From the IMG/VR virus record IMGVR_UViG_3300030106_006223, positions 1 to 37,724 of that record: 37,724 bases of DNA; one strand, 5' to 3'. Origin of the DNA: a virus. A program made the translations under genes and the position numbers. The notes beneath the pieces were generated by a model, which was given only the letters and a program-made list of their open reading frames with translations, was not told the origin of the DNA and searched no databases. Positions 2,921-30,690 of this stretch are shown here, in pieces; position 1 is the stretch's first letter, and each line of letters begins with the position of its first letter.

Positions 2921-2933
2921 GAGGTACTAAATT

Positions 2934-3065: not shown

Positions 3066-3092
3066 ATATTAATAAGTTAATAAAAGTTTATT

Positions 3093-3924: not shown

Positions 3925-4117
3925 ATTTATACACGAAATTGATGAAGAAGTTCTTCCAAAAGTAGATAAACATGGATTTACAATCAAACCACCGATTAGT
4001 GATGAACTGTGTATCTTAATTTGTCTTAAGAATGCACCTTGTGGTACAAATAAAAAGCAAGTTGACCGTTTGGTTTCAGATTATGAAAATATAATTGACA
4101 AGTTCGTTGATAAATAA
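3917..4117 (+). CDS. small hypothetical protein upstream of gp25, 66 aa
   Basis: The ATG at 3917 overlaps the previous stop by 8 nt (ATGAGTGA). The frame encodes MSEFIHEIDEEVLPKVDKHG, then FTIKPPISDELCILICL and a helical tail ending ENIIDKFVDK. It is a compact soluble acidic protein that I do not recognise. An earlier in-frame start at 3887 would add ten residues with an unlikely MRTKHHLHLC beginning. Its stop codon TAA (4115-4117) overlaps the late-promoter octamer GATAAATA serving gp25. Confidence 0.68.
   Translation: MSEFIHEIDEEVLPKVDKHGFTIKPPISDELCILICLKNAPCGTNKKQVDRLVSDYENIIDKFVDK
4109..4116 (+). promoter_or_regulatory. late promoter GATAAATA ahead of gp25
   Basis: This NATAAATA octamer ends 21 nt before the GTG of the gp25 gene, a spacing like those before gp13 and the gene at 33624. 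It overlaps the stop codon of the preceding gene. It is the likely start of a wedge transcript covering gp25, gp6 and the giant gene. Confidence 0.65.
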
Positions 4118-4137
4118 CTTATATTTGCCATATAATT

Positions 4138-4539
4138 GTGCCTTTAGAAAGGGTAAGTCAAGGTTTTAGAGATGTTAGTATGTCATTCAAGAAAAATCCC
4201 TTGAATGATGATTTGATCCTGCTTAAAAATGCAAATGCAATCGCAAGATCAATTAAAAATATTGTGTTTACCTTTCCTGGTGAAAAACCTTTTAATGAAA
4301 CTTTTGGTTCACGGGTATCAAGGTTGTTATTTGACAATTTTGATGATTTAACAGCATCTAATATCAAAGATGAAATTGAATCATCAATTCGTAGATTTGA
4401 ACCAAGGGTGAGATTAAGATCAGTTAGAACAAAACCTGACTTTGAAGGTAATGCTTTTGATGTAAAAATAGTATATGATATTATAGGTGCAGATGTACCT
4501 GCACAGCAATTAGAATTCGTCTTGCAGCCAACAAGGTAA
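4138..4539 (+). CDS. 25: gp25-like baseplate wedge protein, 133 aa
   Basis: This is a homologue of T4 gp25, the small wedge component that helps join the wedge to sheath and hub; the family includes GPW/gp25 proteins and TssE. The 133-residue length matches the family (T4: 132). Visible features are the PLNDDLILLKN segment (21-31), the NIVFTFPGEKPFNETFGS motif (41-58) and the signature FEPRVRLRSV (87-96), which holds the conserved EPR triad, before a beta-rich end. It starts with GTG at 4138, supported by the family-typical MPLERVSQGF N-terminus and by the late promoter 21 nt upstream. The gp6 gene follows after one base. Confidence 0.95.
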   Translation: MPLERVSQGFRDVSMSFKKNPLNDDLILLKNANAIARSIKNIVFTFPGEKPFNETFGSRVSRLLFDNFDDLTASNIKDEIESSIRRFEPRVRLRSVRTKPDFEGNAFDVKIVYDIIGADVPAQQLEFVLQPTR

Positions 4540-4540
4540 A

Positions 4541-6673
4541 ATGCCATTAGTAAACTTCGCTAACCTGGATTTTGAACAGGTTAAAACATCACTTAAAGAA
4601 TACCTAAAGTCAAATTCCAACTTTACGGATTATGACTTTGAAGGATCTAATCTTTCAACAATCATTGATGTGTTGGCATATAATACGTATATTACCTCAT
4701 ACAATGCAAACATGGTTGCAAATGAGGTTTTTATTGATACTTCAACATTAAGAGAGAATGTTGTCGCACTTGCAAGAAATATTGGTTATGTACCTAAGTC
4801 AAGAAAAGCAGCACTAGCAACAGTTAGTTTTGAGGTTGATGTTTCGGATGTAAGTCCAAGTCCGGCATCCATTACTCTTAAAAAAGGAGTTGTTGCATCA
4901 TCTGCAGGAAGCTTTGCATCACAATCTTTTGTATTTTCAATTTTAGAAGACACCACTATTCCAATTTTTGACGGAATTGCAATTTTTGATGATTTAGAAA
5001 TTTATGAGGGAGTTCTTTTAGAATCAAATTTCACATATTCTTCTAGAAATTTAAATCAAAAATATATTTTACCAAATTCTGGTATTGACACTGATTTAAT
5101 TCGGGTTACTGTCAAAACTAATCAATTTTCTACAGCTGCAGCAAAATATTCACTTCAAGATAGTTTATTTGACATTAATTCAGAATCAAAAGTCTATTAT
5201 TTACAAGAAATTTCAGATGAAAGATATGAATTAATTTTTGGGGATGATATTTTTGGAAAAGCACTTGAAGAAGGTAATTATGTCACTGCAAATTATATTG
5301 TGTGCAACGGTGATGCTGCAAATGGCATTTCAAACTTTAGTTTTGCAGGAAGATTAACATATACAAGAAATGGAACTGAATATAATGTAACATCTGGAGT
5401 TTCTTTACTATCTCCAGGACTTATTGCTTCTGGTGGAGAAAATATTGAAACTGTTGAGTCAATTAAAAAGTTTGCCCCAAGAATATATGCAACACAGAAT
5501 CGTGCTTTAACATCTAATGATTACGAAACAATAATTCCAGCAAAAATTTATCCAGAAACTGAATCTATCTCTGTTTTTGGTGGAGAAGAATTAGTTCCAC
5601 CTCAATATGGAAAAGTTTTTATTAGTATTAAACCAACTTTTGGTGATTACTTACCAAACTTAATTAAAGAGAATATAAAACTGAAACTAAAGAAATATTC
5701 AGTTGCTGGTATTGTTCCGGAAATACTTGATCTAAAATATTTGTATCTTGAGAGTAATTCTAAGGTATATTATAACACAAATCTTGCAAATTCCTCAGAA
5801 TTGGTATCAACTCTCGTACAAAATAATGTTACAAAATACTCTGAATCAACTGAGTTAAATAAGTATGGAGCGAGGTTCAAATACAGTAAATTCTTGAAAG
5901 TAATTGATGATAGTCATGAATCCGTAACGTCGAATATTACAACTATTCAGATGAGACGAGATTTGAGAGTAACATTAAATGCTTTAGTTGAATATCAAAT
6001 TGGATTTGGTAATTCTTTCTATATTAAGAAAATGAGTGGTTACAACATTAAAACTTCTGCATTTAGAGTTGATGGTATTGGTGCTGATGTCTACATATCC
6101 GATGTACCGAATTCAGACAGAGAAACAGGTGAATTATTTTTATTCTCTGTTCCATCTATAAATTCGACAAGCCCCACAATTATTAGAAGAAATGTTGGAA
6201 CAATTGATTATAAGAGGGGTGTATTAACATTGAATCCAATCAATATTTTATCAGGAAAAACAAAAACTGGCCAGACAATTATTGAAATATCTGGGTGTCC
6301 TCTTTCAAATGATGTGATTGGACTACAGGATCTTTATTTGCAATTAGATATATCAACTAGCACTTTTGACACAGTGGCAGATGAAATTTCCTCTGGATCT
6401 GATCCTTCAGCATCTAATTATGTTGTGTCCTCCAGTTATGCGAATGGTGTCCTAGTGCGTCCTGGTGGTAGAGGTAGCGTTCCAGTTTCCAGAACCACAA
6501 CCACTACAACTACAACTGGTAATACAACTCTCGCGACTGGTTCAGTCTCTACTACCGGAACTGGACAAGCATCCACCTCAACATCTACATCTACATCCAC
6601 CTCTACTTCTACACCATCCTCTGGTGGAGGATCTACCCCGTCCAGCGGCGGCGGTTCATACGGCGGTTACTAA
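4541..6673 (+). CDS. 6: gp6-like baseplate wedge protein, 710 aa
   Basis: This is a homologue of T4 gp6, which dimerises around gp7 to form the wedge core and the inner ring of the baseplate. The N-terminus is diagnostic: NLDFEQVKTSLKEYLKSN (8-25), YDFEGSNLSTIIDVLAYNTY (31-50) and ANEVFIDTSTLRENVVALAR (60-79). The middle resembles J-like baseplate proteins, with LTSNDYETIIPAKIYPE and YGKVFISIKP. T4 gp6 is 660 residues; here residues from about 651 form an added low-complexity tail of Thr/Ser repeats ending in Gly-rich GGGSYGGY. The start lies one base after gp25, so the genes are coupled. The tail may be disordered or a surface extension. Confidence 0.95.
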   Translation: MPLVNFANLDFEQVKTSLKEYLKSNSNFTDYDFEGSNLSTIIDVLAYNTYITSYNANMVANEVFIDTSTLRENVVALARNIGYVPKSRKAALATVSFEVDVSDVSPSPASITLKKGVVASSAGSFASQSFVFSILEDTTIPIFDGIAIFDDLEIYEGVLLESNFTYSSRNLNQKYILPNSGIDTDLIRVTVKTNQFSTAAAKYSLQDSLFDINSESKVYYLQEISDERYELIFGDDIFGKALEEGNYVTANYIVCNGDAANGISNFSFAGRLTYTRNGTEYNVTSGVSLLSPGLIASGGENIETVESIKKFAPRIYATQNRALTSNDYETIIPAKIYPETESISVFGGEELVPPQYGKVFISIKPTFGDYLPNLIKENIKLKLKKYSVAGIVPEILDLKYLYLESNSKVYYNTNLANSSELVSTLVQNNVTKYSESTELNKYGARFKYSKFLKVIDDSHESVTSNITTIQMRRDLRVTLNALVEYQIGFGNSFYIKKMSGYNIKTSAFRVDGIGADVYISDVPNSDRETGELFLFSVPSINSTSPTIIRRNVGTIDYKRGVLTLNPINILSGKTKTGQTIIEISGCPLSNDVIGLQDLYLQLDISTSTFDTVADEISSGSDPSASNYVVSSSYANGVLVRPGGRGSVPVSRTTTTTTTTGNTTLATGSVSTTGTGQASTSTSTSTSTSTSTPSSGGGSTPSSGGGSYGGY
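6491..6669 (+). repeat. simple-sequence repeat coding the gp6 tail
   Basis: The 3' end of gene 6 is a microsatellite-like run of ACA/ACT/ACC codons, then alternating ACA-TCT type codons (Thr-Ser), then TCTGGTGGAGG-type Ser-Gly units, ending in a Gly/Tyr tail. Base composition and codon pattern differ sharply from the rest of the gene. Such tracts are prone to slippage, so tail length may vary between isolates. Confidence 0.8.
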
Positions 6674-6688
6674 TAGTATCATAAACAA

Positions 6689-9600
6689 ATGTCAGAAAAA
6701 AGAGTTCAGTTTAATAACATCGTTCAGAATCAACTCCCTTCTTATGTTAGGGATGAGTTTCCGCTTATTTCTGAGTTTTTAAAATCATACTACCAAGCAC
6801 TTGAATTTCAAGGTGCTCCCATTGATTTGATACAAAATATTGATCGCTATATTAAACTTGATGAGACAACTAGTATTGCTGAATCTGTTGTCTTATCAGC
6901 TGATATATCTGCTATTGACACAACTATATCTGTTGACTTTGCAAATAGTCCAACAGGGACGGATGGGTTTCCTGATACTTATGGGCTTATTAAAATAGAT
7001 GACGAGATTATAACATATACTGGAAAAACTGATGGATCTTTTACTGGATGTATTAGGGGTTTTTCTGGTATTACATCATATAAACAAGATGCAAATCCAG
7101 AAAACTTAGTATTTGCTACTTCAGAACAAACAACTCATAAAAAGGGTGTTACGATTCAAAATCTAAGCACTCTATTCTTAAAAGAATTTTTAGTAAAAAC
7201 AAAACATCAATTTTTGCCTCTTCTTGATGAAAGACCTCTCTCAGAGGATTTGAATCAAAATTTATTCATCAAACAATCCAAAGATTTTTATCTGAGTAGA
7301 GGAACAGATAGGTCTTTTGAAATTTTATTTAAATCTTTATACAATGCAGATGCAGTTGTAGTCAAACCAAGAGATTTTCTTTTTACTCCATCAAATTCTG
7401 ATTTTAGAGTTACAAACGATTTGGTTGTAGAGTCTATAGAAGGAGATCCTCTTGACTTAGAACAAGCAACTCTCTTTCAAGATGAATATGATGATGCTGG
7501 ATTAGTAAAAGCATATGGCCCAATTACAGATGTAGAAAAACTTCAGGTATTTCAAGTAGGGTCAGCAACAAGTTTTTACAAGTTTAGTATTGATAGTGGA
7601 TATGACAGAGATGTCGAAGTTCAAGGTGCTATTCGGGGAGCATTTGGAATTCATCCTAAAACTAGATTAATTAGTCAAGTGGGGTCTGGTGCAAGTATTT
7701 TATATGTTGATTCTACTGTTGGTTTTGGAACTACAGGAGAATTATTTGTAACTTATAATGATACTACCACTGGAGTCGTATCTTATACATCAAAGAACTA
7801 TACTCAATTTTTTGGATGTACTAATATAACAGGCACAATACCTAGTGCGGGTGTTATTGGTATCAACACATTTGCTTATGGAAGATCATTTAAAGATCAA
7901 AATGAAACTATTAAAGTTAGAATTAATTCTGTACTGAGCGATTTTGTATATCCAGCAGATACAAAAAATTTCCAGGGTGGAGATATTGCACAAATCAAAA
8001 CTCTAGGTAATAATAAAGATTCATCAATTTATAATAATTGGTTCTATAATTATGCGTCGGATCATCTAGTTAATTCTATTGAATTAATAGATTCTTCTGA
8101 TAATAGTTATGAATTTATTTTGAATAAGAAACATTTTTTCAAAGAAAATGATAGTGTTAATATAACTGAACTTAATGGAACCACACAGTTTGGTGGATTT
8201 GTATATAGAATAAATTCTGCGACATCAATCAATATAAAAGGATCAGGTTCCTTAAACTCTAGCAAAACATATAGACTCACAAGGAATGTATTATCGGGAG
8301 ATGCTACTAATTTCCCATCAGCACAGTTGTATCAGTCTAATGTTCAAGGAATTTTTAATAATGATGAAAATTTCCTCGTAGCATCTTCTTCTATACCATC
8401 ATATTTGGGAATAAGACTTAATGCTACAGATAGATCAGTAACTTTTTCTGGAACATTCTCAGGAGAGGAGTTAACGATATCTCCGGATTCAAAACACAAT
8501 TTTTATTCTGGAGATCCTGTTTATTATTCTGCAGGAGTTGGAACAGAAAAATTTATTAATGACTCTGGACAAATTGATATACAAGAAGTTAGAAGTCAAT
8601 CTTTAGGCGATAACTTTCCTGATGGTTTATATTATGTTAAGAGATTATCCGATACAAGTGTTAAACTGGCAAAAAGTAAGAGTGATATCTATAACAATAA
8701 ATTCTTATCAGTAGAAAGTTCGGTTACCGTAACTAGCAATACTCTAAAACCATATTATTTTCAAGATAAAGAATTAAGTTCACAAAAACTCATAAGAGAA
8801 ATTCCACTAAGTGCTCATCACACTGGTAATTTAACTCCAACGGAACCGGGTTTTAATGGAATCTTAGTCAATGGTGTTGAAATTTTAAATTACAAATCTC
8901 CTGATGTTATTCATTATGGACAGATTGATAATATTGAAGTTCTTGCTCCAGGAGATAACTTTGATATTATTGACCCCCCACAGTTACTAATTAGTGACTC
9001 AGTGGGAACAGGAGCTACTGGAAATATTGCAGTTTCTGGATCTTTGGAATCTATAAGAATTTTAGATCCTGGATTTGATTATGATGAAACTCCAGTTATC
9101 ACTATCACAGGTGGCAACGGTATTGGGGCAGTAGTTGAACCAAATATGAAATTGATTGACCATTCAATTTCATTTTTTGCTGAAGCAAGTTCTGCTGGTG
9201 TAAGCACAGTTGATGCAACTGATCCTAATACTATTGGATTCTCAACTTTTCACAAACTAAGAGATGGTGAGCAAGTTATATACAGAACTAAAGGTCAATC
9301 TGGTGTTGCTGGTTTAACAACAGACGCAAAGTATTTTGTAAATACGACTAATAATATCACGATAAAATTGCATAATACTCTCTCTGATGTTATTTCAGGT
9401 ATTAATACCGTAGTATTAACTGACTTTGGTATTGGATCTCATAGTTTTGAAACGGTAAAGAAAAAATCGATCCTTGAATCAGTTTCGGTAATTAGTAGTG
9501 GTGATGGATATGAAAATAAAAAAAGATCTTCAGGAATTTCTGGAATCAGCACATCTCAAGACACCATTAATATAAAGAATCATGATTATAAGTCTGGGGA

Positions 9601-12600
9601 GATAATAAACTATAGTGCAGGATCTTCCGCTATCAGTGGTTTAACTGATGGGACTGACTATTATGTAATTAAAGTAGATGATGATAATTTTAAATTAGCG
9701 AATGTTGGTTTAACAACGTCAACAAAAAGATATTTTTATGAAACAAATCAATATATTGATTTAACTTCTGTAGGGGCCGGAACACACTCATTTAATTATC
9801 CAGCAATTTCTGTTTCTATCACTGGACAGATTGGCATCTCTTCTATTGGTTTAGAAACTTTCCAAGCACAATTACAACCTATTTTCAGAGGACAGATTAC
9901 ATCAGTTAATTTATCCAATAATGGTGTTGGTTATGGTGTTTCTGAAGTTTTGAACTTAGATAGACCTCCCTCTGCTATAGCTGTTTCTGGTGAAGATGCA
10001 CAGTGCCTAGCGATTGTCAATGAGGGAAGAATTGAAGAGGTTCTCGTTCTAAACTCTGGTAAACAATATCTTTCCCCTCCAGATCTTGTAATTCAGGGAG
10101 AGGGAATTGGAGCTGTTATAACTCCAGTATTGAGTAATGGTACTCTAACATCAGTTAAAGTACTTGAACCTGGTTTAGGATATAATCAAAGCACAACTAC
10201 AATTAATGTAATTCATGCAGGAGAAGGTGAAGTATTAAAGGCAAATCTGCAAATATGGAGAGTCAATTTATTTCAGAAATATCTTTTTTCACTTAAGGAT
10301 GATGATGGAGTTATCAGTACTGGTACTAATGAAAATTTTGGATCGCAATATTGTCACATATATGCACCAAGAAAACTAAGACAGTCAATAAACTCAGTTG
10401 ATGGTGATGGTAATGAAATTTATGGAGATGCTGATTTAAGAATAAATGTTAACACCAAACAAGAGGCAGTTTCAGAAAATCATTCCCCAATAATTGGATG
10501 GGCATATGATGGACATCCAATTTATGGTCCATATGGATATACGTCAAGATCTGGCGGAGCAGTCACCATCATGGAGAGTGGATATGTTGAAAGAGCGACT
10601 GCACCACAAAGACCTCCATTAACAACATGGCCGTCGGGTTTCTTTGTTAATGATTTTGTATATGAAAACAAAACGAATGAAACTGTTTTGGATGAAAATA
10701 ACGGAAGACATTGTGTTACACCGGATTTTCCTGATGGAACTTACGCTTATTTTGCTACGATAGCAACTGATGAAGCAGACACACAATCTCCGTTTACTAA
10801 CTTTAGGAGACCTAAATTCCCATATTTGGTCGGAGAAAATTTTCATGCAAAACCTAATGAGTTTAATTTCTCCAGAGTATCAAATCAAGATGATTATAAA
10901 ATTAATACCACTGATTATATAAAAAATACTACTCCTTTTAATTTCTTTGATGATAAGGATGTTCAGTATCAATATCTCTCTTTACCAGCAAATTTAACTC
11001 AAAAAATTGAGGTTGTAAATGCAGAAAAAGGTAGAGTCACCAGTGTTGGTATTATAACAGGTGGAGACAATTATAAAGTAGGAGACCCAGTTGTATTCAA
11101 TGAGTCAGAAACAGGTGGTACAGGCGTTTCTGCGAGGGTCTCACACATTCTAGGAAAACCTGTTGATAGTGTGAGTGTTGCCACAAGTTCTATTGAAAAT
11201 GTTGAATTTTATCCGGATGGAAAGAATAGATATCTACTGTTTGCTGATAACCCACATAACATATCCAATTTTGATACGATATCAGTAAGTGGAGTATCAA
11301 CAACTGCAGCAGATCTTGAAGGAATTTATGCTGCTGGTATTGGCACAAATGTATTTAAAATTGCTGGTGTAGGAATCTCAACTAATGGAGTTGGAACTGT
11401 TAGTTACACTGGATTAGTCACCTACTTTAATTTAACCGGAAATCTTAATTATCCAAATATTAGAGAGAATGATATTCTTGGAATTGGAACAGAAAAAGTA
11501 AAAGTCCTAAATGTTGATAATCGTTTATCAAGAGTCAGAGTTCTTAGGTCTATTAATGGAGTTGTTGGAGTTGCTCATACGGTCGGAACAGGTGTAACTG
11601 TATCTGAAAGAAAACTAAGCATCATTGCAGGATTTAAAACTGATATTTCTTATAGAGTAAATAAACAAATTTATTTTAATCCAGTTGAGACTGTTGGACT
11701 AGGCAGCACGGGTGGAGTTGGTATTGGAAGTACAATATTCTTTGAAAATCCAGGAGCTGGTGCAACTTCTATTATTATACCAACTAAAACTCTCTTTATT
11801 AAAGATCATGGACTTGAGACCGGTGATCAAGTAATATATTCTCCAAATGGAGGAAAGGCACTCATTGCCCAGGATAATCACACTAGCACTCTAGCTGGTG
11901 GTGGATTTAATTATAGTGCAGATCCAAGTGCTTTTGGTCTTATTGGAATTGGACAGACAGTCACCGATGGGACTACTTTCTTTGTAGCTAAGGTCGCAGA
12001 TAATTTGATTGGTTTAGCAACCGCACGAGTTGGTCTTGGAACCACTGGAATGTTTGAAGGAAAAGTAGGTGGTTCATCAACTGTCACCACATTATCATTC
12101 ATTGGAGTGGGAACAGGTGTTTACCATAGTCTTAAGACTAATCATAGTGTTATTACTGGAAATATAAGTAAGAACACCGTTACAGTTTCTACAGGACAAT
12201 CTCATGGTATTAAAGTTGGTCATGATGTAATTCTGGATGTTAATCCAGGTGTTACATCAGCATTCAATATTTCATATAATGATTTTAACAGAAAATTAAT
12301 TATAGATCCAAAATCATATACTTCAACCGGAATTAATACCTCCACTGGGGTGATTACTATTGAGAAACATGAATTAACTCACGGACAAAAAGTTGTATAT
12401 ACCGAAACTAGTTCTAGTCCAACAGAAGGACTTACAAACAATGCAATCTATTATATTTCTATAATTGATAGTAATTCATTCCAACTTTCTACCACATATA
12501 AAAATGCCATTATGGATATCCCAACTACGGTTGGGATAGCTAGCACTGGTGGTGGCGGTGTAATTAATCCGATTAATCCACCGTTAAAGTTGTATCGCGA

Positions 12601-15600
12601 TTCTACCGTTACTTTTGATTTAACAAGTTCAACTCTCTCACATACAATCGAATCTACAACTTATCCTTCCTTTGAGTTTAATTTATACCATGATAAAAAT
12701 TTCTCTAACAAATATGTTGGAAAAATTAGTGATAATAAAAACTATGATGTAACTAGAGATGGTGTAGTTGGTGTTGATAGTGCAGCAAAAGTTGTTTTAA
12801 AAGTTAACGAAAATACTCCTGAGGAGTTGTATTATAGACTTGACTTAACGTATGAGAGTGGTGAGATTCCTGTAGAGAAAACAGAAATTAATATTGATGA
12901 TGAAGTATTTTCAAACAATACTATTTCCATTACTAAGAGTCTTTATAATGGAAAAAATAAAGTATCTGTTGCAGGAACTAATTCTTTTGGTTTTACGGTG
13001 GGTGTAATTCCGGAAGAGTCCTCATATATTTCATCAACAACTGCAGCTAATATTACCTATGAAACTACCTGTACTCATGCAGATGGTCCAATAACAAAAG
13101 TTGAAGTTATTAATAGTGGTAAAGGTTATCAATCTCTGCCAGGTATTACTACTGTTACCAGCACAAGTGGCAAAGGAGTAATCTTAGAAGCAGATAGTAA
13201 TCAGATCGGAAAGATAACCAAGACCAAAATTAAAGATATTGGATTCGATTTCCCATCAGATAAAACACTTAGACCATCGATTACGCTTCCAAATATTATT
13301 AAGATTAAATCTTTAAAATCTTTTGGTTTTATTGGTATTTCTTCTGGCGGAAGAGGATACTCTTCAGCACCAAAATTATTGGTATTTGATGGAAAAACTA
13401 ATGAACAAATTAAAGATGTGGATCTTGATTATAAACTTGGAGATAATCAAGTAAACATTCTTAAAAACACAAAGGGAATTAGTAACACCACTCCCACTAT
13501 ATTACCTATCTTCAATACCAATGGTTGTGGAATTAGTACGATTGGATTTAACACAGAGACAAATCAAGTCACTGTTGAATTATCCGTTGGATTCAGTGCA
13601 TCAGATGAGTTCCCAGTTGAAGTTGGTGATAAAGTACTGATTGAAAATATTAGTGTGGGTATTGGTTCAACGGGAGTGAATTTTAATTCTTCTGCTCACA
13701 ACTACAAGTTATTCCCAGTTATCTACGTAGATAAAAATTTGGGTGGGGTTGGTGCAACTTTTTCTTATAGTGGAGAGGGTTTACTTGATGCAAGTAAGAG
13801 TGAATTTTTTGGTAAATTTGATAGTTTCAATTCTTCCGGAAGATTTATCGCGGAAAGGCATTTCCCAATTTTTGATGTCACTCTCAAGGATAACGAATTC
13901 CTTGATGGTGAAGAAGCTAAATCTCCTACAACTTCAGGAATTGTGGAAAGTTGGGATAGAAAAACGGGAACGCTTAGAGTTTCAACATCCAAAAACTTCA
14001 CTAAAGGAGAAATTATTGAGGGACTTTCCTCCAAAACTCAAGGAGTCGTTGATAGAATAACGGTGTATGATTCTATCCTCAATACTGATGCATCATCTAG
14101 AGTTGTTAGAGGATCTGTCACTGACTCAGGATTTCTTAATTCTAATTTACAAAGAATACAAGATAGTTTCTATTATCAAAATTTTTCATATTCAATTAGA
14201 TCGAGAGTTGATTTTGATACCTGGGACGATGTTGTAAGTACAACAAATCACACAGCTGGTTTTAAAAAATTCTCCGATTATCAATTGGAAACTCCTGCAG
14301 ATCTTTCGCAAGTTGAACAAAATTCAATGCGAGTTGGATTATCTACACAGTTATCATATTTCACTTCAGTTAATGATCTTTACAGTATTGGAGATTTTAA
14401 CTGTACTTATGATTTTGATCTTGCTTTAGAAAATTCTTTAAATGCTGGTGGTAGTATCTTCTCGGATGAAATTATTTTCTCAAGTAGAATTTTAACAGAC
14501 TTTTTTGAATCTTCTGGAAACAGAGCTGTTGATTTTGATGATATAAGTCATCTGTTCAATAGTAATCCTAGAGCAACTAGATTCCAACTGATTGATGAAT
14601 TTAATGTTAGTACTAGTAGATTTTTAAAGTATTTTATTTACTTTAAGGATGAAAGATTTGATAGTGAGAGGCAGTTTGGTATTGTATCTTTACTTCAAGA
14701 TGGACAGATTTCATTCATGAATCAATATGGAAGAATGACCAGTGTGGGAGATCTTGGAGATTTTGACTTTAAGGTTTCTGGAACACAAGGTTCTCTACAG
14801 TTTTTCCCAATCGACTTTGCAGTTAATGATTATCAAATTGTAAGCCTTGCATATCATTTAGATGATAATGTTGTTGGTCTTGGAACTTCTATCATATTAG
14901 GTGATAGTAGTGTAGATATCCGCACAAACAGTGTTGCTGTTCCCGCTGGTGCTGGATCTAGAACAACAGTTGTATCTACTGCGGCAACAACCAGATCGAT
15001 GAAGGTTATGTCCCTCATCTCTGATCCAAGCACTAACGATCACCAATATGATGAATTAAATATTATTCATGATGACACTAATGTCAGTATAACTGAATTT
15101 GGTAGATTGGTATCAAATGAAAACAGTACTTCATTTACCGGATTGGGATTTGGAACTTACTATCCATATCTTGATAGTAGTACACTGAAAGTTGACTTCA
15201 TACCAAGTGTAGGTGTTGCATTAACTTCTAATACTTTGAAAATAGGTTTTGGAACTGATGGAATATCTGGAATCAGCACCGATCAGATGAAACATGCTCT
15301 TCTTGAGGGTAGATCAACATCAATTGCATCTACAGGAACTCCGGGTATTACAACTGTTGGGGAGTATGCCACAGATTATGATTCCGCATATTTCATGGTA
15401 TCAATCACGGATAAAACGAATGATACTTATGAAATGAGAGAACTTATTCTTATTGATACGGATAGTAATGAAGATGGAACTGGAGAAGTAGAGGTTCAGG
15501 ACTTTGGTATTGTTGAGACACCAAATAATATGCCATATTCAGGGCTTGGAACTTTTGGTGCAAGAGTAAATTCTAGTGGTGGTGTTTCCATAACATTTAC

Positions 15601-18600
15601 TCCAGAGGCAAACATCGCTGTTGATGTAAAGACTTTCACTCAAGCACTAAGACTTGAAGATGATAGTAGAGACGAAAGGAGTTTTGGTAATGGATTATTC
15701 GTATCAAATTATGCAAGATATGAAGGAACAGAAAATGCTGTTAAGAAGACTTTCACTTTGGAGCATAGGTCTGCACCGATATTTGAAAAGTATTTCTTAG
15801 GTAATGATTCAAATATTGTTAGTATCAGTGCTGATACAATTAATATTCCGAATCACTTCTTTGTTTCTGGTGAAAAAGTTAGATATGATAGAAATGGCGG
15901 AATTACATCCTCTATTGGTATTGGGGAGACTAATTTTGCTGGACTTGGTAATACTGAATACTTACCTATTGAACAAGATATTTTTGTGATTAAAGTTAAT
16001 GATGATAAGATTAAACTTGCATCTTCTGCAGAAAATGCATTGAAGAAAATTCCAGTTCCCATTGATATTACTAGTGTTGGAATTGGAACTTCACATAGGT
16101 TTAGTTCAACCAATCAAAATGCAAGATGCCTTCTTGCACTTGACAATTTAATTCAGTCTCCAATCGTCTCTACTTCGCAGACAACCGGTCTTTCTACTAA
16201 TGTTAGCACTGTTGATAATATTATTTCACTGAGTGGTATACAATCATACTTTGGATCTGATCTCATTAAAATGGGTAATGAGATCATGAAAATTACTGCT
16301 GTTGGAGTTGGAAGCACAAATGCAGTTACAGTTAGAAGAGGCCAACTTGGAACAAAAATTGGTATTGGATCTACTGGAGATGCAATTACTAAAGTTGTAG
16401 GAAATTACAATATTACTGACAGTACTCTTCACTTCGCTGAAGCACCTTTCGGTGGTCAACCAATTGGTAGTACAACAAACAGACCAGATGAAAGAGATTG
16501 GGAGGGTATTACACAAAGTTCTTCTTTCCAAGGAAGAACATTTATGAGATCTGGTATTGAAGATGATACAGATGATACTTATTCTACAAATTATATTTTT
16601 GATAGTCTCTCTAATAAATTTGATGGTAATACTTCTGCATATACTTTAACAAGTGTAGGATCAAATGATATTACTGGAATTTCTACTGGTAATGCAGTTG
16701 TTCTAATTAATGATATTCTGCAAGGTCCTGGATTAAGTAGAGACTTTACATTAAGTGAAAATTCTGGTATTACCACCATTACATTTACTGGAACTGCATC
16801 ATCTACAACTACAGATGCCAATACTTCCGGATTACCTGTCGGTGGTGTTCTGCTTTCTATGGGATCTTCGGAAGGATTTGGATATCAACCTCTTGTTTCT
16901 GCTGGAGCAACTGCTAAGGTAACTAACACTGGAATTCTTACCGATGTTGCCATTGGTAACACTGGATCTGGATATAGAGCATCTGAGAAGTATGAATTCC
17001 TTGTTAATACCAATGAGTTTGTAGGAATTGGATCAACTGAAATATTCATTCCAAATACTGGAAGTGTTCTTGATATTCTTCCACAATTAAACAGTGGTTC
17101 TAACTGTGAAATAACATTTGGAAAATTAACAGACTCATTTGTCTCTGGCACTATCGTATCATCTGCATCCACTTTTGTAAGACTTCATATAGATGATGAG
17201 ACAACTGTAGGAATTCCAACAGGAACTCAAACTTTAATTAGTGTGTCTAATCCTCCAATTGGATTTGTCAATATAAGTGCTGCTTCTACAAGTGTTGGTG
17301 TAGAAACTTCTATCTATCACGTTGGATTCTCTACTATAATTAATGGACGTGTTTCAACTGCTATTTCGGTTACTAATACCACTGCACAGTTCTATCCAGA
17401 AAAATCAATCACTAACGTTGGTTATAGTTCAATCACAGGAATAACAACTGTTACAACATCTACTGATCATGGTTTATCTGCGGGTGAAGCGATTCAATTA
17501 TCAGGTATAGCATTCACCTGTACTTATGCACCACCTGTTAACGTTTCAAATGTTCTTTATGATAACAATAGTGGGGTTACTACAATCACTACATCTGCCA
17601 TACACCAATTACAGGTAGGAAAAGGTGTAGTTCTAACTGGTATCGCATTTACTTGTGGTCTTGATAATGGTTCATCAACTCACACATATCCAAGAACTAC
17701 CGATCCAGCTTATTGTGGTGTTAAAGTTATTGAGGTACTGAGTACAACACAATTCGTTGTTAACACTGGAATATCTACAGTTCCAACTTTCTATCAGAGT
17801 GGTGGAACAATTCAGGGTGCTATTATTGATGCTCCAAGGAAAAAGAATAAGTCTGCTACTGGAAATGATTTTGCATCTGGTGGTTCCTCAGTAATTGCAG
17901 TTCTTTCTCCTACGTCTTTCGTTGTAAACACTGGAACCTCGACTTGCCCTCATTTCTATAATAGATGTGGTAAGGTCAACAGGCCATTGTCCCTGTTTGT
18001 TGATGATCCACTTTCATATACTAATATCCCACTCAATTATGTTGGTGCGGCAAATTCTGGATTAAATGGGACAGTTGACGTTGTTGTTGGTCAAGGATCT
18101 AGTATTATTGATTTTTCTATTAATAATAAAGGTGTTGGATATAAAGAAGGGGAAATCCTCACTATTCCAACTGGGGGTCTCACAGGAATTCCTACAACAG
18201 GATCATACAGTAATTTTAGGCAATTTGAATTAACCGTTCAAAAAGTATTCTCAGATGAATTTACTGGATGGAGTCTTGGTGTCCTTCAAGCACTTGATGA
18301 TCCATCAGTTCTCTTTGATGGTTCAACTAGGGCATTTAATCTAACACTTTCTGGATCTCAACTTTCTATTAAAGCGTCAAGAGGATCTAAAGTTGACGTT
18401 GAAAAAGTTCTTGTTGTAACTATTAATGATATTCTCCAAGAACCAGGCAAAGGTTACACATTCCCAGGTGGTAGTGTAATTACATTTACAGAACCACCTA
18501 AAGTTGGTGATAGTTGTAAGATTCTCTTCTATAAGGGAACTGGTGATGACACTGATGTTATCTTTAGAGAAGTCATCGAAACCGTTAAAAAAGGAGATAC

Positions 18601-19858
18601 GTTAACTCTTGGATTTGATTCTCCAAATCAAAAATCGTTCCTTCAGGAGGATGCTAGAACAGTAACGAATGTAAATTCAACTGATCAAGTTCAAACATTT
18701 CCATACTTTGGGCCAGGAAATACAGAAGATGAAACTTTACAAAGAAGAGTTACCTGGTGTAGACAAACTGAAGATAAGATTATTGATGAAAAACGTGTTT
18801 CTAAAGATAGAGAACTTTATGAACCGCAAATTCATCCATATGCATACATCATTAAATCTGTTGGTATTGGGTCCACATCAATTTATGTTGATAGATTAAG
18901 ACCACTGTTTAATGCAAGAAATGAAAATGACACTTCTTTAACTTTCCAGAATAAGTTTAAGTTCGCATCACAGGTAGTAACATCTGGAGCAGCAGGAACT
19001 GCTGTTGTGAGCGACACTGGAACTATTTCATCTATTGTTCTTTCTAATGGTGGTGTTGGATATAGCACTGCTACAGTTACAATTGGATCAACTTCTCACC
19101 TTGTTCCTCATCTTGGACTTACAACTGCATTAGGAAATCCAGTGATCAGTGCAGGAGGAACGATTTCTTCCATCACTATCGATAATGCTGGAACTGGATA
19201 TACTAGTACAAATCCACCAATAGTGCTCATAAGTGAACCAGGTTATAGTGAAGAAGAAAATGAAGTTGAAAGTTATCTAGGTGACTCTGGAGTTATTGTT
19301 GGATTTGGAACCACAACAATTAGTAGTGGCGTCACTACACAATTTGTATTTGATTTACATATTCCTTTTGATTCTAAATTAAGAGATACCTCCATAGTTG
19401 GAACAGCAGTAACTCTTAGTGCAATAGGAGTCAATGATTACTTCATCGTTTCTAATTCAAATGTTGGATCAGCAACAACGTCTATTACAGCATTTGATAG
19501 AGCTGGAGTGACAGCATCAGGCATTGGTAAGTCTTTTGTTGATAACATATATGTTGTCCATAGTGTAGAAAACATTGAAAGAACAATCCGTCTGGACGCT
19601 GCTGGTGTTGGAATTGGAACAACTGTTTGCAGAAGAGTGGCAGTCAATATTAATGACTCATTTGATATTGGTATTACGACACAATCTGAATCCACTGTTG
19701 CTGGATATGGTAACTACAGTTGGGGTAACATAACAATTTCTTCAAGAACAGGGTTGAATAGTTACACTGCATATACTGAGAATGGTATTCTAGGAATTAC
19801 CACATCAACAAGAGTGGAGAGATCTGCCCAATTGAGATTTAAAAATTATGATACATAA
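6689..19858 (+). CDS. giant virion protein with gp7-like N-terminus, 4389 aa
   Basis: The N-terminus resembles the C-terminal core of T4 gp7: FPLISEFLKSYYQALEF (24-40), then after an inserted module (about 65-152) FLKEFLVKTKHQFLPLL and QSKDFYLSRGTDRSFEILF (196-214), like T4 SRSYDFYSTKGIEASYKFLF. Position between gp6 and gp8 fits gene 7, but T4 gp7 has only 1032 residues. The remainder is a modular beta-rich chain. It has about a dozen GxGY repeats, at least five GD-V-Y / YYV adhesin-like modules (about 595-680, 845-925, 954-1036, 1694-1814, 1885-1955, 3045-3142), a YHYH-type domain (about 1230-1370, with WAYDGHPIYGPYGY) and FTC repeats (about 3581-3720). Two INDILQ modules lie at about 3301-3371 and 3871-3971. 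It is probably a wedge protein extended into a peripheral or host-contact structure. The gp7 call is inference; a virion role is near certain. Confidence 0.85.
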   Translation: MSEKRVQFNNIVQNQLPSYVRDEFPLISEFLKSYYQALEFQGAPIDLIQNIDRYIKLDETTSIAESVVLSADISAIDTTISVDFANSPTGTDGFPDTYGLIKIDDEIITYTGKTDGSFTGCIRGFSGITSYKQDANPENLVFATSEQTTHKKGVTIQNLSTLFLKEFLVKTKHQFLPLLDERPLSEDLNQNLFIKQSKDFYLSRGTDRSFEILFKSLYNADAVVVKPRDFLFTPSNSDFRVTNDLVVESIEGDPLDLEQATLFQDEYDDAGLVKAYGPITDVEKLQVFQVGSATSFYKFSIDSGYDRDVEVQGAIRGAFGIHPKTRLISQVGSGASILYVDSTVGFGTTGELFVTYNDTTTGVVSYTSKNYTQFFGCTNITGTIPSAGVIGINTFAYGRSFKDQNETIKVRINSVLSDFVYPADTKNFQGGDIAQIKTLGNNKDSSIYNNWFYNYASDHLVNSIELIDSSDNSYEFILNKKHFFKENDSVNITELNGTTQFGGFVYRINSATSINIKGSGSLNSSKTYRLTRNVLSGDATNFPSAQLYQSNVQGIFNNDENFLVASSSIPSYLGIRLNATDRSVTFSGTFSGEELTISPDSKHNFYSGDPVYYSAGVGTEKFINDSGQIDIQEVRSQSLGDNFPDGLYYVKRLSDTSVKLAKSKSDIYNNKFLSVESSVTVTSNTLKPYYFQDKELSSQKLIREIPLSAHHTGNLTPTEPGFNGILVNGVEILNYKSPDVIHYGQIDNIEVLAPGDNFDIIDPPQLLISDSVGTGATGNIAVSGSLESIRILDPGFDYDETPVITITGGNGIGAVVEPNMKLIDHSISFFAEASSAGVSTVDATDPNTIGFSTFHKLRDGEQVIYRTKGQSGVAGLTTDAKYFVNTTNNITIKLHNTLSDVISGINTVVLTDFGIGSHSFETVKKKSILESVSVISSGDGYENKKRSSGISGISTSQDTINIKNHDYKSGEIINYSAGSSAISGLTDGTDYYVIKVDDDNFKLANVGLTTSTKRYFYETNQYIDLTSVGAGTHSFNYPAISVSITGQIGISSIGLETFQAQLQPIFRGQITSVNLSNNGVGYGVSEVLNLDRPPSAIAVSGEDAQCLAIVNEGRIEEVLVLNSGKQYLSPPDLVIQGEGIGAVITPVLSNGTLTSVKVLEPGLGYNQSTTTINVIHAGEGEVLKANLQIWRVNLFQKYLFSLKDDDGVISTGTNENFGSQYCHIYAPRKLRQSINSVDGDGNEIYGDADLRINVNTKQEAVSENHSPIIGWAYDGHPIYGPYGYTSRSGGAVTIMESGYVERATAPQRPPLTTWPSGFFVNDFVYENKTNETVLDENNGRHCVTPDFPDGTYAYFATIATDEADTQSPFTNFRRPKFPYLVGENFHAKPNEFNFSRVSNQDDYKINTTDYIKNTTPFNFFDDKDVQYQYLSLPANLTQKIEVVNAEKGRVTSVGIITGGDNYKVGDPVVFNESETGGTGVSARVSHILGKPVDSVSVATSSIENVEFYPDGKNRYLLFADNPHNISNFDTISVSGVSTTAADLEGIYAAGIGTNVFKIAGVGISTNGVGTVSYTGLVTYFNLTGNLNYPNIRENDILGIGTEKVKVLNVDNRLSRVRVLRSINGVVGVAHTVGTGVTVSERKLSIIAGFKTDISYRVNKQIYFNPVETVGLGSTGGVGIGSTIFFENPGAGATSIIIPTKTLFIKDHGLETGDQVIYSPNGGKALIAQDNHTSTLAGGGFNYSADPSAFGLIGIGQTVTDGTTFFVAKVADNLIGLATARVGLGTTGMFEGKVGGSSTVTTLSFIGVGTGVYHSLKTNHSVITGNISKNTVTVSTGQSHGIKVGHDVILDVNPGVTSAFNISYNDFNRKLIIDPKSYTSTGINTSTGVITIEKHELTHGQKVVYTETSSSPTEGLTNNAIYYISIIDSNSFQLSTTYKNAIMDIPTTVGIASTGGGGVINPINPPLKLYRDSTVTFDLTSSTLSHTIESTTYPSFEFNLYHDKNFSNKYVGKISDNKNYDVTRDGVVGVDSAAKVVLKVNENTPEELYYRLDLTYESGEIPVEKTEINIDDEVFSNNTISITKSLYNGKNKVSVAGTNSFGFTVGVIPEESSYISSTTAANITYETTCTHADGPITKVEVINSGKGYQSLPGITTVTSTSGKGVILEADSNQIGKITKTKIKDIGFDFPSDKTLRPSITLPNIIKIKSLKSFGFIGISSGGRGYSSAPKLLVFDGKTNEQIKDVDLDYKLGDNQVNILKNTKGISNTTPTILPIFNTNGCGISTIGFNTETNQVTVELSVGFSASDEFPVEVGDKVLIENISVGIGSTGVNFNSSAHNYKLFPVIYVDKNLGGVGATFSYSGEGLLDASKSEFFGKFDSFNSSGRFIAERHFPIFDVTLKDNEFLDGEEAKSPTTSGIVESWDRKTGTLRVSTSKNFTKGEIIEGLSSKTQGVVDRITVYDSILNTDASSRVVRGSVTDSGFLNSNLQRIQDSFYYQNFSYSIRSRVDFDTWDDVVSTTNHTAGFKKFSDYQLETPADLSQVEQNSMRVGLSTQLSYFTSVNDLYSIGDFNCTYDFDLALENSLNAGGSIFSDEIIFSSRILTDFFESSGNRAVDFDDISHLFNSNPRATRFQLIDEFNVSTSRFLKYFIYFKDERFDSERQFGIVSLLQDGQISFMNQYGRMTSVGDLGDFDFKVSGTQGSLQFFPIDFAVNDYQIVSLAYHLDDNVVGLGTSIILGDSSVDIRTNSVAVPAGAGSRTTVVSTAATTRSMKVMSLISDPSTNDHQYDELNIIHDDTNVSITEFGRLVSNENSTSFTGLGFGTYYPYLDSSTLKVDFIPSVGVALTSNTLKIGFGTDGISGISTDQMKHALLEGRSTSIASTGTPGITTVGEYATDYDSAYFMVSITDKTNDTYEMRELILIDTDSNEDGTGEVEVQDFGIVETPNNMPYSGLGTFGARVNSSGGVSITFTPEANIAVDVKTFTQALRLEDDSRDERSFGNGLFVSNYARYEGTENAVKKTFTLEHRSAPIFEKYFLGNDSNIVSISADTINIPNHFFVSGEKVRYDRNGGITSSIGIGETNFAGLGNTEYLPIEQDIFVIKVNDDKIKLASSAENALKKIPVPIDITSVGIGTSHRFSSTNQNARCLLALDNLIQSPIVSTSQTTGLSTNVSTVDNIISLSGIQSYFGSDLIKMGNEIMKITAVGVGSTNAVTVRRGQLGTKIGIGSTGDAITKVVGNYNITDSTLHFAEAPFGGQPIGSTTNRPDERDWEGITQSSSFQGRTFMRSGIEDDTDDTYSTNYIFDSLSNKFDGNTSAYTLTSVGSNDITGISTGNAVVLINDILQGPGLSRDFTLSENSGITTITFTGTASSTTTDANTSGLPVGGVLLSMGSSEGFGYQPLVSAGATAKVTNTGILTDVAIGNTGSGYRASEKYEFLVNTNEFVGIGSTEIFIPNTGSVLDILPQLNSGSNCEITFGKLTDSFVSGTIVSSASTFVRLHIDDETTVGIPTGTQTLISVSNPPIGFVNISAASTSVGVETSIYHVGFSTIINGRVSTAISVTNTTAQFYPEKSITNVGYSSITGITTVTTSTDHGLSAGEAIQLSGIAFTCTYAPPVNVSNVLYDNNSGVTTITTSAIHQLQVGKGVVLTGIAFTCGLDNGSSTHTYPRTTDPAYCGVKVIEVLSTTQFVVNTGISTVPTFYQSGGTIQGAIIDAPRKKNKSATGNDFASGGSSVIAVLSPTSFVVNTGTSTCPHFYNRCGKVNRPLSLFVDDPLSYTNIPLNYVGAANSGLNGTVDVVVGQGSSIIDFSINNKGVGYKEGEILTIPTGGLTGIPTTGSYSNFRQFELTVQKVFSDEFTGWSLGVLQALDDPSVLFDGSTRAFNLTLSGSQLSIKASRGSKVDVEKVLVVTINDILQEPGKGYTFPGGSVITFTEPPKVGDSCKILFYKGTGDDTDVIFREVIETVKKGDTLTLGFDSPNQKSFLQEDARTVTNVNSTDQVQTFPYFGPGNTEDETLQRRVTWCRQTEDKIIDEKRVSKDRELYEPQIHPYAYIIKSVGIGSTSIYVDRLRPLFNARNENDTSLTFQNKFKFASQVVTSGAAGTAVVSDTGTISSIVLSNGGVGYSTATVTIGSTSHLVPHLGLTTALGNPVISAGGTISSITIDNAGTGYTSTNPPIVLISEPGYSEEENEVESYLGDSGVIVGFGTTTISSGVTTQFVFDLHIPFDSKLRDTSIVGTAVTLSAIGVNDYFIVSNSNVGSATTSITAFDRAGVTASGIGKSFVDNIYVVHSVENIERTIRLDAAGVGIGTTVCRRVAVNINDSFDIGITTQSESTVAGYGNYSWGNITISSRTGLNSYTAYTENGILGITTSTRVERSAQLRFKNYDT

Positions 19859-19863
19859 TGTTG

Positions 19864-19871
19864 AATAAATA
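19864..19871 (+). promoter_or_regulatory. late promoter AATAAATA ahead of gp8
   Basis: This NATAAATA octamer lies in the 41-nt gap between the giant gene and gp8 and ends 28 nt before the gp8 ATG. It starts 6 nt after the upstream stop and is the only boundary octamer that does not overlap a stop codon. It restarts transcription after the 13-kb gene. Confidence 0.6.
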
Positions 19872-19899
19872 AAAAAAAACTCCGTTTAACTGACACAAA

Positions 19900-21450
19900 A
19901 TGGCTGCAATTATAACTGATCAGATTAGAATTCTGAATGCGAAAAATTTTGTATCTGGAGTTACTTCCAGTTCCAATGCATATTATTCTTTCATTGGATT
20001 ACCAAATCCTGCAGATTATCAAAGTGATTGGGACTCATCTCCCCCCGCACCAAAAGATAATTTTAGTGAAGAGAATGATTATTGGGATACGATGATTGCA
20101 GTGAAAAAAATTAATTCTTCTGATGTTAGACAAGTAATCCCCAAGAGAACTTGGACATCAGGAACAACTTATGACATGTATCGGCATGATTACAGCGTCA
20201 CCAATACTGCAGCTGTGTCTGGTGCCACTAATTTGTATTCGGCATTTTACTATGTAATTAATAGTGATTTTAAAGTTTATATTTGCTTACAGAATGGAAC
20301 TGATCCAGATAATCCCAATGGAAAACCATCTCTTGATGAACCAACATTTACCGATTTAGAACCAAGATCTGCAGGATCAAGTGGTGATGGTTATATTTGG
20401 AAGTATTTGTATACTATTAAAGCGAATGAAGTTGTAAAGTTTGAGTCTACAGACTTTATGCCAGTTCCTTCTAATTGGGCATCTAGTGGTGATAATGCTG
20501 CCGTGAGAGATAATGCTGTAGATGGATCAATTAAGATTGTAACAGTTACTAATGCTGGAGTTGGCATTGGAACTGCTAATTCAACTTATACAAGAGTTCC
20601 GATCGAAGGTGATGGATCTGGTGCTGAATGTACAATTACTGTTGGAGCAGATGCAAAAGTTAGTGGAGTCACTATTTCCAATCAAGGATCAAATTATTCT
20701 TATGGAAGCGTAAATCTATCAGGAGGTAGTGTTCCTACAGGAACCACTATTCCAACTTTTGATGTAATTATGTCTCCTCAAGGTGGGCATGGAAAGGACA
20801 TTTATAGAGAATTGGGTGCATATAATGTTCTTCTATATTCTAGAATTGAAAATGACAATGAAAACCCCGATTTTATTACAGGTAATCAAATTGCAAGAGT
20901 AGGAGTTATTGAAAATCCAGAAGTTTCTACTGGAAACGTATTAACTTCTGATAAAGCAAGTGTTCTTAGTGCTCTTAAATTGACTGGAGTTGGATACAGT
21001 TCGGCCACATTTGATGCAGATTCAACATTTACTCAAACTGTTGGAACTGGAGCGACTGCGGTTGGTAGAGTTGTTAGTTATAACACAACAACTGGAGTTC
21101 TTAAGTATTGGCAAGATAGATCTCTTGTTGGATTTACAACTGCTGGAATTGGAATTACAAATCCATCTTATGGATTTAATTTGACTGAATTTACATCCTC
21201 ACCAGATACTGGTGGTAGTGTTGTAATTACACCCTCAAGTGGATCTAATTTAAGTATTGACTCTAACTTTACTGGTATCACTACTGTAATAAATAATCGT
21301 ACATATTATCTTGGTCAGTCATTTACAAGTGGAGTTGCGGGTCCTGAGGTTAAAAAACACGCAGGAAATATCATTTATGTTGATAATAGACCTTCGATCA
21401 CCAGATCATCTAACCAAAAAGAAGATATCAAAATTATTTTGCAGTTCTAA
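19900..21450 (+). CDS. 8: gp8-like baseplate wedge protein, 516 aa
   Basis: This is a homologue of T4 gp8, the dimeric wedge protein that binds the gp6/gp7 core. Motifs shared with T4 gp8 are VIPKRTW (79-85; T4 VIPRRDW), GDGYIWKYLYTIK (162-174; T4 GDGYVWEYLFEI) and the C-terminal GNIIYVDNRPSITRSS...EDIKIILQF (489-516; T4 GEMIYMENRPPI...EEINILFTF). T4 gp8 has 334 residues. The extra length lies between the GDGY motif and the C-terminus and includes GxGY-type beta modules (about 210-285) like those of the giant protein. It starts at ATG 19900 without a Shine-Dalgarno sequence, after a late promoter. The DUF4815 gene follows after 6 nt. Confidence 0.93.
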   Translation: MAAIITDQIRILNAKNFVSGVTSSSNAYYSFIGLPNPADYQSDWDSSPPAPKDNFSEENDYWDTMIAVKKINSSDVRQVIPKRTWTSGTTYDMYRHDYSVTNTAAVSGATNLYSAFYYVINSDFKVYICLQNGTDPDNPNGKPSLDEPTFTDLEPRSAGSSGDGYIWKYLYTIKANEVVKFESTDFMPVPSNWASSGDNAAVRDNAVDGSIKIVTVTNAGVGIGTANSTYTRVPIEGDGSGAECTITVGADAKVSGVTISNQGSNYSYGSVNLSGGSVPTGTTIPTFDVIMSPQGGHGKDIYRELGAYNVLLYSRIENDNENPDFITGNQIARVGVIENPEVSTGNVLTSDKASVLSALKLTGVGYSSATFDADSTFTQTVGTGATAVGRVVSYNTTTGVLKYWQDRSLVGFTTAGIGITNPSYGFNLTEFTSSPDTGGSVVITPSSGSNLSIDSNFTGITTVINNRTYYLGQSFTSGVAGPEVKKHAGNIIYVDNRPSITRSSNQKEDIKIILQF

Positions 21451-21456
21451 AGAATT

Positions 21457-30686: not shown

Positions 30687-30690
30687 TCTT

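Follow-up and report, generated by a model that had tools for sequence, protein, structure and literature searches.

Baseplate wedge protein gp7 in T4 and in cyanophages

The present analysis concerns a giant gene that occupies the gp7 slot of a T4-like tail locus in the IMG/VR virus record IMGVR_UViG_3300030106_006223 (37,724 bases; "the window" below is this entire stretch of DNA). Among the closest known systems is the baseplate wedge protein gp7 of phage T4 (1032 amino acids (aa); PDB 5hx2, 5iv5), which is encoded in the same gene order as in the window and which, among other partners, contacts gp10. According to the available text of PMC3004832, T4 gp7 is a monomer that is present in six copies and makes wedge contacts with gp6 and gp8, and gp9 is the long-tail-fibre attachment protein. 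Compact gp7 proteins, in which both halves of the core discussed below reside in one frame, are encoded by ViI (308-aa frame), Stenotrophomonas phage Moby (503 aa), Acidovorax phage ACP17 (482 aa) and pf16 (529-aa frame); those of Moby and ACP17 begin directly at the core.

Viruses of the family Kyanoviridae infect ocean cyanobacteria and are abundant. The gp7 proteins of Synechococcus phage S-SM2 and other cyanophages (PHROG 2885) represent the same gene, in the same slot and with the same architecture, as the window protein. S-SM2 is the closest named relative of the gene at the DNA level (73% identity across 49% of the gene); its 4,156-aa counterpart is already annotated as gp7 (baseplate wedge subunit/initiator), and the full window protein (residues 1-4385) matches PHROG 2885, 'baseplate wedge subunit'. 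The identity and the size of giant gp7 are accordingly known to databases; the S-SM2 annotation is silent on the split core, the series of inserts and the module slot described here, and S-SM2 itself is without a slot module. A phmmer search of PDB with the entire giant protein gave no match at 0.1.

An orthologue has been identified in virions, as the preliminary description of this locus presumed for the window protein: according to the accessible text of PMC9146016, S-SZBM1_208 ('baseplate wedge initiator', 6,619 aa) was detected by mass spectrometry with 71 peptides and 13.5% coverage. We find both gp7 halves in this 6,619-aa frame. A counterpart by position, ORF122 (open reading frame 122) in the gp6-gp8 slot of S-CREM2, is reported with 91 unique peptides and 27.2% coverage in the available text of PMC10665884. 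Conversely, in the text accessible to us, a 2020 paper states that T4 gp7 is absent from cyano- and pelagimyophages, apparently being replaced by VrlC (PMC7029224), and another counts gp7 in the non-cyanophage core and remarks on its strong divergence (PMC3037559). No account of a split core, an insertion series or a module slot was found in the literature searched, with subscription papers largely outside the search. A literature search for a Kyanoviridae baseplate structure found none and turned up the unrelated cyanophage A-1(L).

A divided gp7 core in the giant protein

We consider it likely, with a probability of about 80%, that the giant protein is a gp7 orthologue with a conserved but interrupted core, in which a large insert forms a closed arm and the C-terminal tail a free arm for fibre attachment or host contact. 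As judged by sequence comparison, the core consists of an N-half (residues 1-250) and a C-half (residues 2385-2535) with ~2,130 residues of beta-rich modules between them. The gene order in the window is T4-like, namely gp25, gp6, the giant gene, gp8, a DUF4815/VrlC-type protein, gp13, gp14, gp15 and gp16, and the 13.2-kb gene in the gp7 slot is, as originally proposed, single and intact, lying between Pfam-matched gp6 and gp8 (Table 1). In tblastn searches with residues 1-260, relatives were found in 496 of 50,697 phage records.

The N-half matches T4 gp7 specifically. A profile of the second N-half helices, built from 13 cyanophage and compact gp7s with none of T4 type, retrieved only two of 177,635 PDB sequences up to an E-value of 10; both are T4-type gp7s (3.6e-7 and 5.4e-7), the match lying at T4 residues 726-758. 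The earlier suggestion that the first ~240 residues resemble the C-terminal part of T4 gp7 thus holds. A hidden Markov model (HMM) made from ten non-cyanophage gp7s recognizes residues 183-244 of the window protein at 9.2e-14 and residues 9-55 weakly, at 0.0028; the best value among reversed and shuffled controls was 0.015 for a whole sequence (a shuffled protein) and 0.096 for a single stretch. The E-values of these non-cyanophage HMM searches were computed for 22 sequences, while 33 were searched. The helical N-half also contains the motif FYxx[KR]GTxxSFxxLFKxLY, and a match of the Pfam family PF23786 to residues 7-39 falls under its cut-off.

In the AlphaFold model of the N-core (mean predicted local distance difference test (pLDDT) score 69.4), strands 66-158 lie between helices 9-55 and 160-218, in agreement with the preliminary description, which placed an inserted beta module at about 65-152. 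This first insert is absent from Moby, ACP17 and phiM7 in the alignment and amounts to ~600 aa in S-SM1 versus ~90 in the window; the N-half helices of S-SZBM1 begin equally far in (675) as those of S-SM1. The insert resembles part of a protein of the Pelagibacter podophage Skadi-7 that is annotated as tail tube B (residues 69-124, 52%, E 1e-3). When the N-terminal model was compared with known structures by VIA-align, gp7 was not among the best 50 rows. Most of these rows pair a beta-barrel (residues 448-536) with barrels of V-ATPase, helicase and EF-Tu (Z 8-9.5), and a module at 321-393 is paired with phage tail proteins (Z up to 9.9); on these predicted models, the barrel and the module are taken as common folds.

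The C-half was recognized through a second conserved stretch that is common to the compact gp7s and T4, YYQxFSYxIxS...HPxGxxxF, with the form YYQxFSYxIxS...HxxGxxxF in the window. An HMM from nine non-cyanophage gp7s matches window residues 2487-2527 at 3.5e-7, nine giants in all and phiM7; the controls stayed at noise (0.28 for a separate 1389-aa protein of S-CAM8, 0.4 or worse for reversed and shuffled sequences). Against the same 177,635 PDB sequences, a C-half profile without T4-type sequences ranked T4 gp7 first (E 0.025, residues 865-888) and a KP1-type gp7 second (0.071), followed by an unrelated protein (0.56). The beta region together with the motif is colinear with T4 752-880 (hhalign E 4.5e-4, probability 33%), and AlphaFold models residues 2400-2459 confidently (block pLDDT 83-89). 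T4 gp7 thus carries both matches, with 106 residues between them. The preliminary description regarded the remaining ~4100 residues as lacking in T4; this needs correction, since about 150 of them (2385-2535) form the C-half of the core. The greater part of the additional mass is therefore inserted within the core and bounded by it on either side.

Whole records of 20 named phages were searched together with the window, a 37.7-kb genome fragment. Of these 21 records, 13 contributed a row each to the profiles; the N-half profile has exactly one match in all 21, and the C-half profile a single match in 20, S-SKS1 showing a second, marginal one (E 0.0045, stop inside). A second N-half, as expected of a separate gp7 gene elsewhere, was not found in the 20 named whole records or in the fragment represented by the window. 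Both halves lie in one open frame in 20 of the 21, the gene of S-SKS1 being broken into frames, and all eight records without a row in the profiles (S-SZBM1, S-CAM8, T4, HTVC008M, ViI, S-CRM01, pf16 and S-SKS1) match both halves. In the fetched loci, the two matches are colinear in 125/125 frames that have both, and 113 of 115 complete or long frames bearing the N-half also bear the C-half according to a wider HMM that includes cyanophage sequences, the window among them; the other two (S-SKS1 and contig L175) are frame-broken yet colinear. In S-SKS1 (13983-26369), gp7 is spread over several frames, with no annotated coding sequence across ~7 kb, and in L175 it occupies two frames, colinear with the window protein; these breaks may be shifts in the record or real splits.

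These records bear on the published view that gp7 is missing, in which case the VrlC-like protein encoded downstream of gp8 would replace it and the giant would be an unrelated structural protein. That view has the statements of PMC7029224 and PMC3037559 (as far as their text was available) behind it. However, both halves are present in one frame in 10 of the ten cyanophages of our first panel, in S-CRM01 and in the pelagimyophage HTVC008M (NC_020484; a 1016-aa frame at 33912-35867), and in separate frames of the broken S-SKS1 gene. We rejected replacement by VrlC and regard it as almost certainly wrong; at the level of sequence, the statement that gp7 is absent is contradicted by HTVC008M and by 12 named cyanophages, one of which, S-SKS1, has the halves in broken frames.

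The distribution of conservation was assessed in a 42-sequence set that comprises the window, six named phages and 35 contig ORFs of more than 3,000 aa with an N-half; it was not dereplicated and is without the more diverged S-RSM4, S-SM1, S-CAM8 and S-SZBM1. The contig relatives are the best 80 per scan and therefore lean towards close kin. Mean identity of the 41 relatives to the window is highest in the C-half motif (0.69) and in the two N-half parts (0.67 and 0.62), ahead of the first insert (0.56), the big insert (0.47) and the tail (0.43); no other region measured is as conserved as the motif and the N-half helices. The 48-residue motif 2481-2528 contains 11 of the 15 invariant columns in a 597-residue stretch from eight phages, and 13 of 42 in 62 sequences.

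One could suppose instead that gp7 comprises residues 1-250 only, that the rest is a C-terminal fibre-like extension and that the motif 2481-2535 has nothing to do with gp7, being a module that recurs in cyanophages, given that the C-half match to PDB is modest when taken alone (E 0.025) and that AlphaFold leaves the motif unfolded. We find this very unlikely because the motif occurs in T4 and in the compact gp7s of ViI, Moby, ACP17 and pf16, is the sole match in 20/21 whole records, always within the gp7 frame, is colinear with the N-half in all 125 fetched frames that have both, and is the most conserved region measured. A gp7 limited to the first 250 residues was rejected since the C-half was found by HMMs, PDB profile, hhalign and in whole records.

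A single insertion site of variable capacity

With the interrupted core as the preferred reading, the lengths of gp7 can be compared at one site. All ten cyanophages of the first panel encode giants, including S-RSM4 (3,515 aa), S-CAM9 (3,884), Bellamy and SynMITS9220M01 (4,067 each), S-SM2 (4,156), P-TIM68 (4,307) and P-SSM2 (5,195); the open frames of S-CAM8, S-SM1 and S-SZBM1 reach 6,167, 6,180 and 6,619 aa, the S-SM1 protein being covered to residue 5,420 of 6,180. Smaller frames are found elsewhere in Kyanoviridae, in S-CRM01 (1,456 aa), HTVC008M (1,016) and Melnitz-2 (896).

The distance between the two profile matches is 16 residues in ViI (weak partial matches at 1.8e-6 and 0.001 in the one 308-aa frame), 106 in T4 (partial profile matches), 232 in pf16, 246 in Moby and ACP17, 376 in Melnitz-2, 512 in HTVC008M, 790 in phiM7, 1,077 in S-CRM01, 1,563 in S-RSM4 and 2,155 in S-CAM9. 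The next values lie close together, with 2,204 in S-SM2, 2,213 in SynMITS9220M01, 2,214 in Bellamy and P-TIM68, 2,216 in P-SSM2 and 2,232 in the window (versus 16-246 in the compact gp7s), followed by 2,365 in the broken gene of S-SKS1, 2,700 in S-CAM8, 2,701 in S-SM1 and 2,776 in S-SZBM1. The spacer at one gp7 site thus differs about 170-fold in length among relatives. In the 42 complete relatives, the insert (columns 261-2380) measures 2,037-2,127 residues. Taken together, these alignments place a single insertion site between the halves of the predicted core, with an insert of fixed size in close relatives.

The spacer of Moby and ACP17 holds GxGY-type modules resembling those in the big insert (hhalign E 4.7e-6 at best, against 0.91 for the reversed control), and modules of this type are also found in the C-terminal tail (hhalign 6.5e-5). 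A simple tandem-repeat gene was rejected: self-BLASTP of the giant protein at E 0.01 returned no pair, indicating that its modules are diverged.

The insert contains a match to the YHYH domain (PF14240; 80.1 bits against a cut-off of 25). In the available text of PMC7824862, YHYH is described as a predicted zinc hydrolase with a site of three His and one Asp. Residues 1215-1400 include five His, of which a single one, H1265, is retained in 41 or more of the 42 relatives (it is invariant, 42/42), H1276 being present in 8/42 and H1341 in 4/42; D1274 is kept in 42/42. For the gp7 domain, catalysis seems less likely than a structural or binding role.

Post-translational cutting could also divide the chain, releasing a small gp7 from fibre or shell proteins and leaving no giant wedge subunit in the particle. 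Genes in several frames, as in S-SKS1 and L175, indicate that separate pieces may be tolerated, and the 13.5% peptide coverage given in the accessible text of PMC9146016 is compatible with cutting. However, the frame breaks sit in otherwise colinear genes and may be record errors, and a cut within the insert would put the core halves on different chains; we therefore view cutting as unlikely.

The C-terminal tail: a gp9-like domain and a module slot

A counterpart of T4 gp7 905-1032 was looked for in the tail of the giant protein and was not found. Near the beginning of the tail, the predicted model contains a domain (residues 2739-2857) that appears to share the fold of the C-terminal domain of T4 gp9. 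VIA-align superimposes it on 1qex 169-284 with Z 12.9 and a root-mean-square deviation of 2.4 over 113 residues, and Foldseek also ranks 1qex first (E 2.9e-3). The chain 9f4a_LA, a 303-residue component of the KP1-variant baseplate that we take to be gp9 of this variant, is matched by VIA-align with Z 10.8; below it come five phage tailspike or tail-fibre domains (Z 7.3-10.5), and the remaining rows on this domain score at most 5.4. The T4 gp9 sequence gives a very weak hhalign match to the domain in the same register (E 0.0055, probability 6.6%). PF07880, the N-terminal gp9/gp10 family, is present in 4 of 10 cyanophage records and in T4, and was not found in the records of S-SM2, Bellamy, SynMITS9220M01, P-SSM2, S-CAM9 and S-RSM4. 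A separate PF07880 protein is encoded near gp7 in S-SM1, S-SZBM1 and S-CAM8.

Further out in the tail lies a slot (residues 3430-3769) whose length ranges from 51 to 1,112 residues across the 42 relatives and is near-empty (51-62 aa) in 25 of them. Slot length tracks the number of copies (0-10) of a ~104-aa module (r = 0.987; slope 104 aa per copy). The module HMM, seeded from 34 stretches of seven proteins in the same 42-sequence set, found no module outside the slot in these relatives. Relatives of the window slot were detected in 171 of 50,697 phage records. Where the 40 rows listed fall in annotated genes, these are named tail fibre, hypothetical, structural, exoprotein or baseplate wedge/gp7. 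In S-CAM9, the gp7 slot is near-empty and the module is found instead in a tail-fibre gene.

The proposal that the wedge protein has become a host-contact apparatus thus finds partial backing in the gp9- and tailspike-like fold and in the variable fibre-module slot, both in the tail; its other element, a binding role, is one that we infer. The inserts and the tail might alternatively be neutral filler derived from module duplication and devoid of any role in host contact. Similar modules in gp14, another virion protein, and the many near-empty slots are in line with such an origin. Nevertheless, insert length varies by ~4% among the 42 relatives, which align here at ~47% identity and with few gaps; such constancy is not expected of unconstrained filler, and slot modules also occur in tail-fibre genes. 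We give the neutral alternative a small but real chance.

Features of the locus and neighbouring genes

Table 1. Predicted features of the giant gp7 gene and adjacent genes in the window
Feature	Position	Strand	Residues	Basis or remark
gp25	4138-4539			T4-like gene order
gp6, wedge partner	4541-6673	+		Pfam PF21379, PF21387, PF21871
Giant gp7 gene	6689-19858	+	4389 aa	ATG start, without internal stop; 472.5 kDa
gp7 core, N-half	6689-7438	+	1-250 (helices 9-55 and 160-218)	Non-cyanophage HMM, PDB profile search, AlphaFold
First insert, small beta module between two helical parts	6881-7144	+	~65-152	AlphaFold strands 66-158
Second, giant insert in gp7 core	7439-13840	+	~251-2384	Flanked by N-half and C-half
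YHYH domain (PF14240)	10463-10765	+	1259-1359	Pfam; C-terminal part of profile only (86-183 of 193)
gp7 core, C-half	13841-14293	+	2385-2535 (beta region ~2385-2480, motif 2481-2535)	HMMs, hhalign, AlphaFold (beta region)
C-terminal tail	14294-19855	+	2536-4389 (~1,850)	Conservation profile; without counterpart of T4 gp7 905-1032
Domain with fold of T4 gp9 C-terminal (long-tail-fibre) domain	14903-15259	+	2739-2857	VIA-align, Foldseek
Variable module slot, two ~104-aa modules	16976-17995	+	3430-3769	42-relative alignment, module HMM
gp8, wedge partner	19900-21450	+		Pfam PF09215 Gp8
DUF4815/VrlC-type virion protein	21457-29037		2526 aa	Directly after gp8

Several neighbouring genes deserve comment. 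The neck protein gp14 (30679-32133, 485 aa) contains the T4 neck-protein domain at residues 4-181, and stretches at ~256-388 match gp7, tail-fibre and virion-protein PHROGs, indicating that similar modules are present in a neck protein. An ORF that leaves the window edge (36232-37722) encodes a DUF192 domain at 272-374, and the two ORFs between gp16 and this one (33624-35804 and 35801-36235) show weak family matches or none. S-SM2 has three ORFs between gp16 and gp17.

Assessment and proposed arrangement

Several results weigh against an interrupted gp7 with a gp9-like free arm. The PDB matches of the C-half, taken alone, are above 0.01; the non-cyanophage C-half HMM alone missed five complete frames of more than 4,000 aa in a larger search, S-SM2 among them, which were recovered only by the C-half HMM that includes cyanophage rows; and the identity of the beta region 2385-2480 (0.43) is no higher than that of the tail. 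AlphaFold left the helices of the C-half motif unfolded (pLDDT <50), and the structural resemblance of the N-core to gp7 is recovered weakly, the top Foldseek match being a baseplate chain (1031 residues) from a T4-like phage with E 1.0e-3, probability 0.25 and TM (template modelling) score 0.08; for these two reasons, packing of the halves against each other stays an inference. An HMM of T4 1-640 made from six T4-type gp7s detects the held-out F86 protein at 1.5e-102 and scores the 42 giants at 0.22 or worse, as it does Moby, ACP17, phiM7, Melnitz-2 and S-RSM4. The 640-residue N-terminal extension of T4 gp7 thus went undetected in the 42 giants, hidden T4 N-terminal domains were rejected, and the window protein is classified as a gp7 that is not of the Straboviridae-type full-length subtype. 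In the tail, a profile of residues 2370-2966 retrieved no gp9 from PDB (one unrelated match, E 1.5), and PF07880 was not found by Pfam in the 4389-aa protein at E 0.1, so that the giant cannot be filed as a gp9, the N-terminal domain of T4 gp9 being missing from it. Finally, 30 of the 42 relatives are without a slot module, the window having two.

The alignments nevertheless support, at the strength of sequence comparison, orthology to gp7, a split core, one insertion site, an insert of fixed size and a variable slot, and the gp9-like fold is apparent on the predicted model. In the arrangement that we favour, the two halves of gp7 would pack together on gp6/gp25/gp53 in a T4-like manner. Because both halves would meet on gp6, the giant insert would leave the wedge and return to it, forming an arm closed at both ends, of fixed size and part of the peripheral baseplate, and the tail would depart from the C-half as a free arm, with the gp9-C-like domain near its root and the variable slot for fibre-type modules further out. 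The tail probably serves fibre attachment or host contact and may relay the contraction signal to the wedge core. By analogy with the six monomeric copies of T4 gp7, six of each arm would follow.

The result contradicts a printed claim that gp7 is absent and supplies the exact wedge-core residues for placing in a map; the slot at 3430-3769 is the first place to look for host contact. More generally, we tentatively suggest, with odds somewhat short of even, that the gp7 core of the T4 superfamily of myoviruses has one site that can hold from 16 to ~2,780 residues and that, in marine cyanophages, the wedge subunit has become a scaffold from which two arms extend, one closed and constant in size, the other free and recombining. 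Such a scaffold would merge the roles of separate T4 proteins (gp9, perhaps gp10-gp12), and fibre-type modules would be traded between gp7 and tail-fibre genes.

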